NCBI RefSeq assembly: GCF_016861975.1
Contig: NZ_BOMB01000009.1
Span: 1-64,000, forward strand
Reading direction: 5' to 3'
Length of the DNA stretch: 64,000 nt
DNA from: Actinocatenispora rupis
GTDB lineage: Bacteria > Actinomycetota > Actinomycetes > Mycobacteriales > Micromonosporaceae
Below are positions 3,325-49,805 of the stretch, one piece after another; positions within the stretch are counted from its first letter, which is position 1, and every line of letters begins with the position of its first letter. The notes below the pieces were generated by a model. That model ran no database searches and was not told the DNA's origin. It worked only from the letters and a program-made list of their open reading frames with translations. Position numbers and translations under genes: made by a program.

Positions 3325-3468
3325 GCCCGTCCCTCCGTCGCGCCAGCCTCAGCGCCGAACCCTACTGGTCGTACGGGAGGGCGCGGGGGTGTGGATGGGT
3401 CGGGCCCGGCGCGGGGTGGCGCCGAGCCCGAAGTGGATCTTGTTACCGCAGATTGTCCAATTGTGTCA

Positions 3469-3519
3469 TTGTTCAATTGTTCAACTGTTGAACAATGAGA
3501 CAGTTGAACAATTGAACAA
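3469..3519. repeat. A+T-rich palindromic element, intergenic copy
   Basis: A perfect 20-bp inverted repeat (arms 3469-3488 and 3500-3519, built from TTGTTCAA and TTGAACAA units) encloses an 11-nt loop. It is strikingly A+T-rich against its surroundings. It lies 39 bp downstream of the metQ stop and could act as a transcription terminator for the met operon or a 3' stabiliser, although no T-tract follows. Bases 3467-3491 match 45235-45259 at 24 of 25 positions, so it belongs to a dispersed family with two copies inside genes. Confidence 0.9.
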
Positions 3520-3557
3520 AGTGCGGTATGTCCAGTTACGCACCGATCAGCGCACGC

Positions 3558-44269: not shown

Positions 44270-46165
44270 TCAGGTGCGGGACTGGTGCAGGGTCAGGGCC
44301 AGTTCCAGTTCCAGCGCGCGGGCCGGGGTCTGCCAGTCCGTACCGAGCAGCTGGGTGATCCGGTCCAGGCGCTGATGCACCGTGTTCGGGTGTACGTGCA
44401 AGGCATGCCGCGCCCGGCTCGGCGACCTCCCCGCGGCGAAGTACGCGCGGAGCGTCTCCACCAGCCGGGCCCCGCGCGCCGCGTCGTACTCCAGCAGCGG
44501 ACCCAGCGTGGCCGTGACGTACCCGTCGAGGTCGCGGTGCTCGCCCAGCACCACGCCCAGGAAACCCAGATCGGCCATCGCCACCCCGGTGCCGCGCCGG
44601 CCCAACGCCAACGCCGCCGACAGGCACCGCCGCCCCTCCCGGTACGCCGCGGCGATCGCCGCCGGACCCACCGCCGGACCCGCGCCCGCCACCGTCGACG
44701 AATGCCGCAACTCGGCCGCGACCGTACGGGCCGTGGCGCCCGGGTCCGAACCCGGCACCAGCAGCACGTCCGCCCCCTCGTACCGGGTGGTCAGCGCGGC
44801 CGGTCGGCGCGTCGGCAGGGCACTGTCCGGCCGGTCCACCACGAGCACCACGTACCGGCGGGCCAGGTCGATGCCGAAGCGGCGGGCCCGGTCCCGCAGG
44901 CCGGCCGGGTCCCGCGTCGGCGCCAGCAGGATGTCCGTCAACAGGTCGCCGCCGATCCGGGCCTGCGCGTCGGCCGCGGAACGGCGGAACAGCAGCAGAA
45001 GCGCCGTCACCAGCGCCGCGCGTTCCAGGGTGCGCTGGTCGGCCTCGTCGAGCGGGGCATCAGCGCGGAGTACGAGGGCGCCGAGGTGCTCGGGGCCGGC
45101 CGCCACCGACGCCACCCAGTACTGTCCACTGTGGACGGAACGACCGGTCTCGCGGGACCGGGCGACCAGGTTGTTGATCTTGGCGAAGTGATCTGATTGT
45201 TCAATTGTTGACTTGTTGGATTGTTCAACAAGTGCATTGTTCAATTGTTCAACAGTTGACTTGTTGAACAATAAGGGTGCGCCAGCGATCGGCGCCCCGT
45301 CCGCATCCAGCACCGCCAGCGCCCCCGACAGCACCTCCGCCACCGCCGCGGCCAGATCGTCCAGGTCCCCACCTCGGAGTACGAGTGCGGTGAGCCGGTC
45401 GTGTGCGGTCGCGGCGCGTTCGGTGGCGGCGGCGCGGGCGCGGCCGAGGCGGTTGGCTTCGTCGAGGTCGGCGAGGGCGGCGCGGGTTTCGGTGAGCATG
45501 CGGGCGTTGTCGATGGCGATGGCGGCGTGGTCGGCGAGCGATCCGAGGAGTGCGACCTCGTCCTGGCCGAACTGCCGTTCGCGCCGGTCGGCGGCGAAGA
45601 GTACGCCGATGACGCGTGGCCCGAGCCGCAGCGGTACGCCGAGGATGGCGACGAGTCCTTCGTCTCCGACGCCGGTGTCGATCTCGCGGGTGTGCGCGAA
45701 CTGCGGGTCGGACAGGTAGTTGGGGCTGCGGTAGGGGGAGGCGGTCTGGGCGACGAGTCCGCCGAGTCCGGCGCCCATCGGCAGCCGCAGGTGCTGGAAC
45801 GTCGCGGCGACGGATCCGTCGGTGACCCGCATGTACGTGTCGCCGCGCGCCGGGTCTTCCAGCGTCAGGTACGCGACGTCGGTGCCGAGGAGGCGGCGGG
45901 CGCGTCGGACGATGGCGTGGAGTACGGCGTCGAGGTCGCGGAGTCCGGCGAGGTCGCCGGCGGTCTGGAACAGCGCGGTGAGTTCGTTCTCGCGCCGGCG
46001 GTGTGCGTCCAGCCGGGTGCGCAGCCGCAGCGCGAGGGTCTTCGCCCGGTCGAGTTCGGCGAGCGTGGCGGTCGACGCGCCCGCACGCCGCGCCCGTTCC
46101 GCCGGCCCGTCGTACTCGGCGGCGGGTGCGTCGCGCAGCAGCAGGTCGAGGAAGTCGCCGTCCAT
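44270..46165 (-). CDS. GAF-domain PucR family transcriptional regulator
   Basis: A 631-residue regulator. The GAF domain spans about residues 65-225 (L-T-A-L-F-Q-T-A-G-D-L-A ... G-L-G-G-L-V-A-Q-T), followed by a coiled linker, a second sensory segment near 260-380, and a C-terminal PucR HTH_30 (H-V-H-P-N-T-V-H-Q-R-L-D-R-I-T-Q-L-L-G). Residues 298-324 are encoded by a dispersed A+T-rich palindromic element and are Asn/Gln/Ser-rich, unlike the rest. It is divergent from the 3-hydroxybutyrate dehydrogenase and transporter genes and is probably their activator. Confidence 0.88.
   Translation of the reverse strand: MDGDFLDLLLRDAPAAEYDGPAERARRAGASTATLAELDRAKTLALRLRTRLDAHRRRENELTALFQTAGDLAGLRDLDAVLHAIVRRARRLLGTDVAYLTLEDPARGDTYMRVTDGSVAATFQHLRLPMGAGLGGLVAQTASPYRSPNYLSDPQFAHTREIDTGVGDEGLVAILGVPLRLGPRVIGVLFAADRRERQFGQDEVALLGSLADHAAIAIDNARMLTETRAALADLDEANRLGRARAAATERAATAHDRLTALVLRGGDLDDLAAAVAEVLSGALAVLDADGAPIAGAPLLFNKSTVEQLNNALVEQSNKSTIEQSDHFAKINNLVARSRETGRSVHSGQYWVASVAAGPEHLGALVLRADAPLDEADQRTLERAALVTALLLLFRRSAADAQARIGGDLLTDILLAPTRDPAGLRDRARRFGIDLARRYVVLVVDRPDSALPTRRPAALTTRYEGADVLLVPGSDPGATARTVAAELRHSSTVAGAGPAVGPAAIAAAYREGRRCLSAALALGRRGTGVAMADLGFLGVVLGEHRDLDGYVTATLGPLLEYDAARGARLVETLRAYFAAGRSPSRARHALHVHPNTVHQRLDRITQLLGTDWQTPARALELELALTLHQSRT
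45194..45273. repeat. A+T-rich palindromic element inserted in frame in the PucR gene
   Basis: Built from TTGTTCAA, TTGTTGAACAA and ACTTGTTG units. A 14-bp inverted repeat is at 45220-45233 and 45259-45272; ATTGTTCAATTGTT recurs as a direct repeat at 45197 and 45236. Its 25-bp core (45235-45259) differs from 3467-3491 at one base. On the coding strand it reads in frame without stops as K-S-T-V-E-Q-L-N-N-A-L-V-E-Q-S-N-K and more, placed between two ordinary stretches of the protein. Confidence 0.9.
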
Positions 46166-46275
46166 GGCGGCCGATTCTCGCGTACCGGGGTGTGCCGGTG
46201 CCATACCCGAAGGCGTACGGCTGTGGGAGCTCGGCACATGGGATCCAGGTCACAGTGTGTCTAGCGTGTGTCGAC

Positions 46276-47028
46276 ATGGTGAATGCGGAACTCGCCGGCC
46301 GTACCGCGCTGGTGACCGGTGCGGCCAGCGGTATCGGCGCGGCCTGCGCGCGGCGGCTCGCGGCGGCGGGCGCGTACGTGGTCGTCGTCGACGTGAGCGC
46401 GGACGGCGCGGCGGCGGTGGCGGCCGAGGTCGGTGGCCGGGCCGTACCGCTGGATCTGGCCGAGCCGGACCGCGTCGCCGACCTCGACTGCGACGTCGAC
46501 ATCGTCGTCAACAACGCCGGCCGGCAGCACGTGGCGCCGGTGCCGGAGTTCCCGCCGGAGGAGTTCGGCGGCTTGCTGCGGCTGATGCTGGAGACGCCGT
46601 TCCGGATCGTCCGCGCCGCCCTCCCGCACATGTACGCCCGCGGCTGGGGCCGCATCGTCAACGTGTCGTCGGTGCACGGCCTGCGCGCCTCCGCGTACAA
46701 GGCCGGGTACGTGGCGGCGAAGCACGGGCTGGAGGGCCTGTCGAAGGTCGTCGCCGTCGAGGCCGCCGGCCACGGAGTCACCTGCAACTGCGTCAATCCC
46801 GGCTACGTGCGCACCCCGCTGGTCGAGCGGCAGATCGCCGACCAGGCCCGTGCGTACGGGATCCCCGAGGACGAGGTCGTCGACCGGGTACTGCTCGCGC
46901 GGTCCCCGACTAAGCGGTTGGCCGAGCCGGCCGAGGTCGCCGAACTCGTCGCGTACCTGTGCGGGCCGCACGCCGGCCTCGTCACCGGGGCCTCGTTCAC
47001 CCTCGACGGCGGCTGGACCGCCCTCTAA
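46276..47028 (+). CDS. bdhA: 3-hydroxybutyrate dehydrogenase (SDR family), copy 2
   Basis: A 250-residue short-chain dehydrogenase with T-G-A-A-S-G-I-G near residue 15, N-N-A-G near residue 86, H-G-L-R-A-S-A-Y-K-A-G-Y-V-A-A-K containing catalytic Tyr and Lys, and T-P-L-V-E-R-Q-I-A. It oxidises 3-hydroxybutyrate to acetoacetate. TAGCGT 15 bp before ATG 46276 may be a -10 box for a leaderless message; no ribosome binding site is visible. It heads a rightward set with a transporter and two secreted hydrolases, which gives the substrate assignment good contextual support. Confidence 0.9.
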   Translation: MVNAELAGRTALVTGAASGIGAACARRLAAAGAYVVVVDVSADGAAAVAAEVGGRAVPLDLAEPDRVADLDCDVDIVVNNAGRQHVAPVPEFPPEEFGGLLRLMLETPFRIVRAALPHMYARGWGRIVNVSSVHGLRASAYKAGYVAAKHGLEGLSKVVAVEAAGHGVTCNCVNPGYVRTPLVERQIADQARAYGIPEDEVVDRVLLARSPTKRLAEPAEVAELVAYLCGPHAGLVTGASFTLDGGWTAL

Positions 47029-47043
47029 CCCTGGAGTACCCCC

Positions 47044-48366
47044 ATGACAACGGAGACCCCCGAGACCAGATCGGCGACCCGGGCGGGTGGCGGTTCGCTC
47101 GCCCGGGTCCTGGCGGCCAGCATGGTCGGCACCACCGTCGAGTGGTACGACTTCTTCCTGTACGGCTCGGCCGCCGCGCTGGTGTTCAACAAGGTGTTCT
47201 TCCCGACGACCGACCCGCTCGTCGGCACCATGCTGGCGTTCGTCACGTACGCGCTGGGGTTCGTGGCGCGGCCGCTCGGTGGCATCGTGTTCGGGCACTT
47301 CGGCGACCGGATCGGCCGCAAGAAGCTGCTCATGCTGAGCCTGCTCATGATGGGCGGCGGCACACTGCTGATCGGCGTACTCCCCACGTACGGCACGGTG
47401 CACATCTGGGCGCCGGTGATGCTGACGGTGCTGCGGCTCGTGCAGGGCTTCGCGATCGGCGGGGAGTGGGGCGGCGCCGTACTGCTCGTCGCCGAGCACG
47501 GATCGCCGCAGCGGCGCGGATTCTGGGCCAGCTGGCCGCAGGCCGGCGCACCCGCCGGCAACCTCATCGCCACCGCCGTCCTCGCCATCCTCGCCGGCGT
47601 ACTGCCCGACGCGCAGTTCCTCGCCTGGGGTTGGCGGATCCCGTTCCTGCTGTCCGCCGTGCTCATCGCCATCGGGTACTGGGTGCGCAGCTCCGTCGAG
47701 GACGCGCCGCTGTTCCTCGCCGCCAAGAAGCGCGAGACGCACACCCGGATGCCCGTCGTGCGCGTGCTGACCAGGTACCCGAAGCAGTTGCTGGTGTGTG
47801 TCGCGGCCCGCTTCGCCGAGAACGTCGTCTACTACGTGATCACCGCGTTCGTCCTCGTCTACGCGACCGAACACCTCGGCCTCGCGAAGTCGCTCATCCT
47901 CGGCGCGCTGCTCGTCGCCAACGCCGTCCACCTCGTCGTCATCCCGCTGTTCGGCGCACTGTCCGACAAGATCGGGCGCCGCCCCGTGTACCTCATCGGC
48001 ACCGTACTGACCGGGCTGTGGGCGTTCGCGTTCTTCGGGCTGCTGGACACCAAATCCACGCTCGCGATCGGCGCCGCCGTCGTCGTCGGCCTCATCGGAC
48101 ACGCCGCCATGTACGGACCGCAGGCCGCGTTCTTCGCCGAACAGTTCGACACCGGCGTCCGGTACACCGGCACCTCCGTCGGCTACCAGGTCACCTCGAT
48201 CATCGCCGGCTCCCTCGCACCCATCATCGCCGTCGCGCTCCTCGACCACTTCGGCACGGGGTACGCCATCGCCGTGTACGTCCTGTTCACCGCCGTCGTG
48301 TCGACCATCGGCGTACTGCTGTCCGTCGAGACCCGGCACGTCGACCTCGCGGCCGAGGCGGCCTGA
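47044..48366 (+). CDS. MHS family metabolite:H+ symporter (MFS)
   Basis: A 440-residue MFS importer of the metabolite:H+ symporter family (ShiA/ProP/KgtP relatives), with the signature T-V-E-W-Y-D-F-F-L-Y-G-S near residue 30, G-H-F-G-D-R-I-G-R-K-K near residue 87, and R-L-V-Q-G-F-A-I-G-G-E-W-G-G. Family substrates are small carboxylates; context suggests 3-hydroxybutyrate or a short oligomer. It begins 15 bp after the dehydrogenase stop with CTGGAG as ribosome binding site. Confidence 0.9.
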   Translation: MTTETPETRSATRAGGGSLARVLAASMVGTTVEWYDFFLYGSAAALVFNKVFFPTTDPLVGTMLAFVTYALGFVARPLGGIVFGHFGDRIGRKKLLMLSLLMMGGGTLLIGVLPTYGTVHIWAPVMLTVLRLVQGFAIGGEWGGAVLLVAEHGSPQRRGFWASWPQAGAPAGNLIATAVLAILAGVLPDAQFLAWGWRIPFLLSAVLIAIGYWVRSSVEDAPLFLAAKKRETHTRMPVVRVLTRYPKQLLVCVAARFAENVVYYVITAFVLVYATEHLGLAKSLILGALLVANAVHLVVIPLFGALSDKIGRRPVYLIGTVLTGLWAFAFFGLLDTKSTLAIGAAVVVGLIGHAAMYGPQAAFFAEQFDTGVRYTGTSVGYQVTSIIAGSLAPIIAVALLDHFGTGYAIAVYVLFTAVVSTIGVLLSVETRHVDLAAEAA

Positions 48367-49805
48367 TGCGCGCCCGACTCCCGCGGTACGCCCGGGTCGT
48401 GGCGGTGGCCGCGGCGGTACTCGTGTCGCCGGCCGCGGGAGCGGGCGTGGCAGCGGGGTCGGTGGGCTCGGGCGGCGCGGGTGCCGGCGCGGGCGACGGG
48501 CCATGCGGTCGTACCGATTATTGTTCCATTGTTCAACAGTTGAACTGTTCGACAATGGAACAAGATCACCCCGCGTCGCTGATTCCTGGCGCTGCGTACC
48601 AGATGAGCGCGTGCCTGTCCGACCTGACCACCGCCGGCACCGCCCGTACCGGTCACACCGACCCGGCCGACTACGCCGGGCTGGCCGCCGCCGGTACGAG
48701 GAACCCGTCGAACGTTCCCGGTCTCCAGGTGGACGGCTACTTCCCGGACGGGTCGACGAGCAACACCGAGCACGGCTGGAACCACGACGCCCAGTTCGTC
48801 CTGCGTCTGCCGGACCGCTGGAACGGTGGCCTGGTGGTGACGGGCGCGCCGGGGAACCGCCGGCAGTACTCGCTGGACAGCACGATCTCGGACTGGGTGC
48901 TGGCGCAGGGGTACGCGTTCGCGGCGACGGACAAGGGGAACACGGGTGCGGCGTTCTTCGCCGACGGGCGCCGGCCGGGCGACGCGATCGCGGAGTGGAA
49001 CCGCCGCCTGACGCAGTTGACGGTGGCGTCGAAGGCCGCGACCGCCCGGTACTACGGCCATCGCGTGCGGCGCACCCTGGTCACCGGCATCTCGAACGGC
49101 GGCTACCTGACGCGCTGGCAGCTGGAGAACCATCCGGAGCTGTACGACGGGGGTGTGGACTGGGAGGGCACGCTGTGGCGCGCCGACGCGAACATGTTCA
49201 CGTACCTGCCGACGGCGTTGCGGGAGTACCCGCGGGTGGCGGCGGGTGATCCGGCGGCGCACGACGCGATGCTGGCGGCGGGGTTCGCGCCGGGTTCGGA
49301 CTTCCTGTGGCCGTACCACGACCAGGTGTACTGGGATCTGACGCAGCGGATCTACCGGGCCGAGTTCGATCCGGGGTTCAGTCCGGGTGATCCGGCCGGT
49401 TCGCCGTTCTGCGCGTCGGGTTCGCCGCACTGCGACGCCGACTACGACTACGCGTCGCGGCCGGCGGCGGTGCACCGGGCGGTGGCGCGGATCGCCTTGA
49501 CGGGGCGGATCGGGAAGCCGCTGATCTCGTTGCAGGGCACGCTGGACACGCTGCTGCCGATCCGTACGGACGGCGACGTGTACGCCCGGATGGTGCGCGG
49601 CGCACCGTTCCGCTACTACCGGATCGCCGGCGGCACGCACACCGACGGCCTGTACGACACGTACCCGGATCGGTTGCGTCCGATCCTGCCGTGCTACCGG
49701 GCGGCGCTGGCCGCGATGGGCGCCTGGCTGTCCGGCTCTGCCACGCCGCCGCCGGGCGGCACCGTCCCGCGCGGGAGCGACGTGGTGAATTCCTGTTCCC
49801 TGTAG
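48366..49805 (+). CDS. Secreted alpha/beta hydrolase, probable 3-hydroxybutyrate oligomer hydrolase
   Basis: A 479-residue secreted hydrolase with an N-terminal signal peptide and a Gly/Ala-rich linker. The nucleophile motif is G-I-S-N-G-G-Y with Ser243, and a C-terminal G-G-T-H-T-D-G supplies a candidate His. The A-T-D-K-G-N-T-G-A-A-F-F and D-W-E-G-T-L-W motifs fit secreted tannase/oligomer-hydrolase-like families. Neighbours (dehydrogenase, symporter, PHB depolymerase) favour a 3-hydroxybutyrate oligomer hydrolase; feruloyl esterase or tannase activity cannot be excluded. ATG 48366 overlaps the previous stop. Residues 51-67 come from a palindromic repeat element. Confidence 0.8.
   Translation: MRARLPRYARVVAVAAAVLVSPAAGAGVAAGSVGSGGAGAGAGDGPCGRTDYCSIVQQLNCSTMEQDHPASLIPGAAYQMSACLSDLTTAGTARTGHTDPADYAGLAAAGTRNPSNVPGLQVDGYFPDGSTSNTEHGWNHDAQFVLRLPDRWNGGLVVTGAPGNRRQYSLDSTISDWVLAQGYAFAATDKGNTGAAFFADGRRPGDAIAEWNRRLTQLTVASKAATARYYGHRVRRTLVTGISNGGYLTRWQLENHPELYDGGVDWEGTLWRADANMFTYLPTALREYPRVAAGDPAAHDAMLAAGFAPGSDFLWPYHDQVYWDLTQRIYRAEFDPGFSPGDPAGSPFCASGSPHCDADYDYASRPAAVHRAVARIALTGRIGKPLISLQGTLDTLLPIRTDGDVYARMVRGAPFRYYRIAGGTHTDGLYDTYPDRLRPILPCYRAALAAMGAWLSGSATPPPGGTVPRGSDVVNSCSL
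48518..48565. repeat. A+T-rich palindromic element in frame in a secreted hydrolase
   Basis: Arms 48521-48541 and 48543-48563 form a nearly perfect 21-bp hairpin around one central base, with mismatches only at two inner positions. CATTGTTCAACAGTTGA (48527-48543) matches the core of the copy at 45235 with eight bases deleted. It is read in frame as C-S-I-V-Q-Q-L-N-C-S-T-M-E-Q between the signal peptide and the catalytic domain. Confidence 0.9.

Follow-up and report, generated by a model that had tools for sequence, protein, structure and literature searches.

The foldback (FB) elements of Drosophila have inverted arms built of short subrepeats and of variable length; they are eukaryotic and far longer than the arrays reported here. 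Bacterial and mitochondrial systems used for comparison are characterized in what follows. Rickettsia palindromic elements (RPEs) are dispersed palindromes that also occur in frame in genes, where they add a peptide (PMC10969869); they measure ~150 bp and carry a conserved peptide per family. REP elements are palindromes of 20–40 bp tagged at one of their ends by GTAG or CGTC (PMC3733652), and those moved by RAYT need a Y1 transposase. The BOX elements of pneumococcus are modular, being made of boxA, boxB and boxC sequences with a tandem internal module in variable number (PMC3049150). TAACTGA heptamer repeats form intergenic word arrays in distant lineages (Beggiatoaceae, Cyanobacteria and Bacteroidetes) with no evident mechanism, and are direct repeats of one word, most of which, in the genome that was described, lie immediately before start codons (PMC4679880). 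Finally, the GC clusters of yeast mitochondria (GC42 and kin) are short, mostly intergenic palindromes whose base composition is opposite to that of their genome; they are merged and shuffled into many types, include copies that are identical, and are flanked by short direct repeats (PMC4478555). In the papers searched, a set that leaves out most subscription papers, nothing was recognised as the family described below and four 16-mers had no match.

The window, that is, the whole stretch of 64,000 nucleotides analysed from Actinocatenispora rupis, has a G+C content of 73%, which dips to 0.35 at 45200–45279, with neighbouring 80-base windows mostly at 0.69–0.81. The dip falls on a regular array of 77 bp at 45196–45272 (this and the other arrays are given without a strand). 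The array has 32% G+C and consists of ten pentamers at exact 8-bp steps separated by 3-base spacers, in the order ATTGT, ATTGT, CTTGT, ATTGT, ACAAG, ATTGT, ATTGT, ACAGT, CTTGT, ACAAT. An earlier note had placed an A+T-rich segment at 45194–45273, and the ends of the array agree with it within 1–2 bases. That note had also called the segment palindromic; inverted words are indeed present, but the best inverted pair is 25 nt long with 84% match, and a description of the array as octamer words set in either orientation is more apt. A 17-mer taken from it had, with up to 3 mismatches, ten matches in the 64-kb window, all within the three arrays found there, and none in 100 dinucleotide shuffles. 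Searched against the whole genome with 2 mismatches allowed, a degenerate 17-mer gave 155 + 148 matches, against 0 + 1 for the reversed control. This recurrence ruled out a chance A+T island. Next to the array, the flank word GTTGATCTTG (45173–45182, no strand assigned) reads on the minus strand as the K-I-N of FAKINN; an outward flank word, AAGATCAAC, was found within 30 nt of the array in 10 of 122 array flanks.

The array lies in a minus-strand gene (44273–46165) for a PucR-type regulator of 631 aa, with Pfam matches (E ≤ 0.001) to GAF at residues 77–218, GGDEF-like at 419–516 and the PucR helix-turn-helix (HTH_30) at 568–625. It contains no stop in the frame of this gene and leaves that frame unchanged, as first noticed, and translates as ...PLLFNKSTVEQLNNALVEQSNKSTIEQSDHFAKINN..., the array itself covering residues ~298–324. 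The position had been given as a linker before a second sensory region: it is a linker following the GAF domain, but no second GAF-like region was recognised by Pfam at E ≤ 0.001, and the domain that follows is GGDEF-like. Matches to the protein at E ≤ 1e-70 were obtained in 255 of 354 genomes of the family, its own included, and the 29 best-scoring other loci among those listed, plus the congener G003, were aligned, as the earlier note had proposed. The block was missing from all 30 orthologues, none of which thus retained the segment in the absence of the palindrome; a conserved protein segment was therefore ruled out. At the array site 36 residues are found here and 10 in G003. The linker as a whole spans 67 residues against 41–63 in the orthologues, among which its length varies and 17 of 30 have 50. 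The gain of about 27 residues initially proposed is close to the net excess of 26 over the nearest orthologue, that over the commonest orthologue span being 17. The same gene contains a second palindrome, GTCCACNGTGGAC, at 45124–45136, ~110 bp away from the array's midpoint. Across the 1.0 Mb read, 52 sites of this sequence were counted, 35 of them inside predicted genes, and the G003 orthologue differs at the site with no change in length.

Two further copies are found in the window. One, of nine pentamers, lies outside predicted genes at 3452–3520. The other, of six pentamers at 48520–48564, is in frame and close to the N-terminal end of a hydrolase that resembles tannase/feruloyl esterase and is encoded on the plus strand (48366–49805). 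The start of this gene is inferred to be the ATG at 48366, which overlaps the TGA of an upstream transporter gene, and by eye the protein begins like a signal peptide. It has 12 more residues than its counterpart in G003, the sole match among three congeners. To extend the survey to the genome (7.8 Mb in 81 contigs), 48 stretches were read in addition to the window, 1,007,790 bases in all, which contain 267 of the 303 degenerate 17-mer matches. A parser that imposes the 8-bp step returned 65 arrays, two of which adjoin in stretch L040 and may be one. By proportion the genome should hold roughly 70–75 elements, a figure biased to arrays with the query 17-mer.

The arrays share one layout, in which a pentamer (ATTGT, ACTGT, CTTGT or a complement) recurs at 8-bp intervals and three spacer bases separate it from the next. 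Six words fill 471 of 503 pentamer slots (ATTGT 168, ACAAT 135, ACAGT 68, ACTGT 58, ACAAG 25 and CTTGT 17), and ten slots fall outside the parser's pattern. ATTGT-type words lie mostly on the left and ACAAT-type words on the right, so that the strand can fold back. Spacers between left-type words are TCA (71), CCA (33), CTC (16), GTC (12), TGA (11), CGC (8), GCA (7) and rarer others; those between right-type words are mostly their complements. Length and frame statistics were based on 63 arrays, two of the 65 being dropped for unclean ends; lengths of 37, 45, 53, 61, 69 and 77 bp were represented by 5, 11, 15, 16, 13 and 3 arrays, respectively. Other repeats were seen beside some arrays. Tandem arrays of the heptamers GGACTGT (L042:9940-9983), GCCCGTT (L064:10084-10109) and CTCTGCC (L072:10052-10077) are separated from octamer arrays by 4, 23 and 11 bp, respectively, and a small hairpin-like word starting AATCGGT adjoins several (e.g. 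L055:10001, L072:9989, L057:9995 and L084:15155), being present within 30 nt of the array in 6 of 122 flanks.

Arrays are strongly depleted from genes. In the stretches read the coding fraction was 0.83 by a simple codon-based gene caller, which assigned five arrays to genes, 32 to tandem gaps, 16 to convergent gaps, 9 to divergent gaps and 3 to edges. The copy in the hydrolase was missed because, in our reading, the gene start was called too late, and the count was raised to six. Six of 64 arrays (the L040 pair counted once) thus touch genes, against the coding fraction of 0.83 (binomial P ~3e-38). Five are in frame: besides the regulator and the hydrolase, the genes concerned encode a flavin monooxygenase (L061), a sacsin-like ATPase (L069) and a bifunctional salicylyl-CoA 5-hydroxylase/oxidoreductase (L073; NCBIfam score 1183 bits, cut-off 1078). 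The sixth array supplies the last residues and the stop of a DJ-1/AraC-type regulator (L078).

The likeness to RPEs suggested at the outset holds insofar as a dispersed palindromic repeat is found in frame in this gene and in four others. Membership does not follow, since only 6 of 64 arrays are in genes and the 8-bp words share no common order; the arrays measure 37–77 bp, flanks uncounted, and their word order shows nothing in common beyond a Markov chain, in contrast to the longer RPEs with their conserved peptides. The arrays so behave like an RPE yet fall outside that definition, a distinction drawn from descriptions of RPEs and not from their sequences. As regards the other systems, the arrays share modularity with BOX elements, from which they differ in a unit of 8 bp. 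They differ from TAACTGA repeats in using several words in two orientations. Being A+T-rich in a G+C-rich genome, they mirror the mitochondrial GC clusters, but show no target-site duplication signal at the array ends and no master array. We call them a new sort of miniature dispersed palindrome.

The regular spacing could mean that each 8-bp word is a candidate site for a DNA-binding protein and that arrays are kept for a regulatory or architectural function. Consistent with this, the register is fixed: clusters identified with no imposed period had a length of 8n+5 in 41 of 65 cases (8n+4 in 15). In addition, special spacers number at most one per arm in 120 of 126 arms (one in 75, none in 45, two in 6), and of the 21 arrays that carry one per side, 14 have them four octamers apart. 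However, with background gap shares by length of 0.51 tandem, 0.22 convergent and 0.28 divergent, the counts of 32, 16 and 9 indicate that promoter-side gaps are if anything avoided. Moreover, 8 bp is no helical repeat, some copies are inside genes, and none of the three congeners contains the exact pattern. Conservation for binding is on balance unlikely.

Folding was considered at the level of one copy and of the whole set. As single-stranded DNA, 121 nt around the array in the regulator gene gave -20.1 kcal/mol (z -4.1), which none of 200 shuffles equalled. An asymmetric hairpin, with the special spacer at position 2 opposite position 3, was observed 9 times against 6.2 expected (P 0.06), an excess too slight to be claimed. 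Across the arrays, pairing between the two arms of the same array (0.718) was slightly below that of halves swapped between arrays of equal length (0.739, s.d. 0.009), and 1986 of 2000 permutations reached the observed value. Therefore the palindrome stems from the layout of the words, and the arm-pairing test gave no sign of a selected stem. Nor was there a strand bias among G-U and A-C departures from pairing (P 0.75). These two results, together with the lack of any Rfam match at E ≤ 1 in the window at 45000–49000, speak against the arrays acting as RNA, whether as terminator, stabiliser or small-RNA hairpin. In favour of such a role are the fold of the single copy, computed as DNA, and a slight excess in convergent gaps (16 against ~12.5 expected); we consider it most improbable.

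Relationships between arrays were then sought in their word order and flanks. Runs of 3, 4, 5 and 6 words were common to 250, 41, 3 and 0 array pairs, against means of 237, 34, 3.9 and 0.8 in 30 simulations of a first-order Markov chain; because word order fits such a chain, no master array is visible. Median differences within length classes were 19–31%, the closest pair differing by 4%. Nineteen pairs of the same length differed by ≤10%, and among these only L060:12985/L078:11649 (53 bp each) clearly shares both flanks, with scores of 12.0 and 19.0 (background 95% level 10.0, 99% level 13.0, largest value 22.5). Likeness between arrays is hence weak evidence of copying. A loose flank screen of all pairs among 61 usable arrays passed seven pairs, the weaker of which may be due to chance given ~3,700 comparisons. 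Two pairs had both flanks well above background and arrays differing by whole octamers: L045:9452/L049:9985 (61 versus 37 bp, with flanks scoring 15.5 and 22.5) and the pair within L061 (77 versus 69 bp; 19.5 and 19.5). We read both as probable copies of a unit that extends beyond the array, three and one octamers having been gained or lost, respectively. Shared flanks combined with whole-octamer differences thus indicate copying plus gain and loss in steps of 8 bp. BLAST of array flanks in search of duplicated loci found no empty site.

The exact pattern matched 80 times in the genome of A. rupis and, with no mismatch allowed, in none of 353 other genomes of the family, including three others of the genus; diverged arrays could escape a search that allows no mismatch. 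In a sample of the phylum, 3 of 396 genomes matched, the two others with one match each, neither an array. Among the genomes searched, the family therefore appears confined to its own genome, as seen by sequence matching. A phage origin was rejected, as a scan of IMG/VR with one 17-mer gave four stretches and no array. So was a plasmid origin: PLSDB returned three records at E ≤ 0.01 (two from Rhizobium rhizogenes, one from Agrobacterium fabrum), and the one opened, pRiA4, has a one-way array of another layout, in which seven words follow one another, TTTGT being the first. An 18-mer, ATTGTTCAATTGTTCAAC, matched 28 stretches in a collection of species genomes, none from an actinomycete by title, own or near records being perhaps excluded. 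Eight arrays of at least five words were present in six of these loci, mostly from Bacteroidota, the longest with 21 words (L022); they were essentially one-way, L023 excepted, which is of mixed orientation. One-way tandem arrays of A[CT]TGTTCA, its variants or complement were observed in L014, L019, L022:5849-6013 and L035 (Bacteroidales by title) and in pRiA4 (L153:1503-1555). Five of the matches to the 18-mer (L012, L013, L018, L033 and L034) fall in a conserved coding motif, GM(K/Q/S)IVQLFN, and are probably unrelated to arrays.

That the same octamer builds one-way tandem arrays in unrelated bacteria, that word order is Markov-like and that other short tandem arrays adjoin some elements would all fit arrays that had each grown in place, a short seed being extended by local slippage. 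Growth without movement is at odds with the pairs that sit at different sites and have flanks in common, and simple slippage yields one orientation and not two, which makes this origin very doubtful. We also entertain, as a speculation of low probability, that the arrays do not simply copy a master but are each composed, or later recomposed, from a small octamer dictionary on a dispersed seed, by a dedicated process such as template switching or an enzyme laying down or exchanging 8-base words in two orientations. Given the one-way A[CT]TGTTCA arrays in Bacteroidota and on the Rhizobium rhizogenes plasmid, the process, or the sequence preference behind it, would then be shared across phyla.

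The reading we favour, with a probability of roughly 0.7, is that of a dispersed family of non-autonomous palindromes shaped by copying, octamer gain and loss, and purging from genes. Hairpin-prone DNA would be spread by some activity, arrays would gain or lose whole octamers through slippage or exchange, and selection would remove nearly all copies that hit genes. Speaking against it are the lack of a target-site duplication signal at the array ends, of a Y1 transposase and of an empty site at nucleotide resolution, the slightly lower pairing of own arms than of swapped halves, and a word order in which no master array shows. A special case with a named mover is a classical MITE, in which the arrays would be the inverted ends recognised by a transposase of the host. 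The arrays are indeed short, A+T-rich, inverted, dispersed and mostly intergenic, and an outward boundary word, CGAT, is present in 31 of 122 flanks. On the other hand, there is no consensus beyond the words, no parent element was noticed, though without a systematic search for insertion sequences, and a target-site duplication signal is lacking: in 61 copies the direct match averaged 1.98 nt, against 2.02 when permuted, with array ends taken as boundaries where the true boundary may lie outside. This version we judge rather unlikely. Regarding the mover of REP elements, no Y1 transposase (PF01797) was detected at E ≤ 0.001 in the assembly, which is 96.8% complete, while 5 of 14 control genomes were positive, and in this respect the arrays are unlike REP elements moved by RAYT.

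Under the favoured reading of a copied and purged family, the copies that persist in frame need explaining. The cycle of the forward word, ATTGTTCA, is open in all three frames, whereas its complement carries TGA. Each of the 63 arrays has 1–4 of its six frames open, 157 of 378 overall (0.42, against 0.26 in composition shuffles). Because 8 and 3 have no common factor, and because no frame of the forward word contains a stop, copies can survive in frame. Comparison with congeners gave a mixed picture of the residues added. In the salicylyl-CoA hydroxylase the span is 117 residues against 47 in all three congeners, the array itself accounting for 23. In the flavin monooxygenase it is 43 against 43, 51 and 51, that is, no gain, and in the sacsin-like ATPase 57 against 49 and 98 in the two congeners aligned; both argue against a simple insertion. 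For the latter protein, the frame chosen in the third congener (L132) did not align and was left out of the comparison. Since survivors lie in linkers or loops that differ among relatives, the added peptide, rich in Asn, Gln, Ser and Thr, most likely serves as a spacer that is tolerated, with no new function gained, and such copies would be neutral.

In-frame palindromes are shown here in a genome that is both large and rich in G+C, so that copies stand out readily by their A+T contrast. All 63 arrays have at least one open frame among their six, and a copy lies in frame within five genes, so the family offers a clean set for the question of how repeat DNA becomes protein. Its strict 8-bp grammar, neighbours that differ by whole octamers and the lack of a master array mean that the origin and spread of short palindromes with no visible transposase could become testable in the strains of one species.
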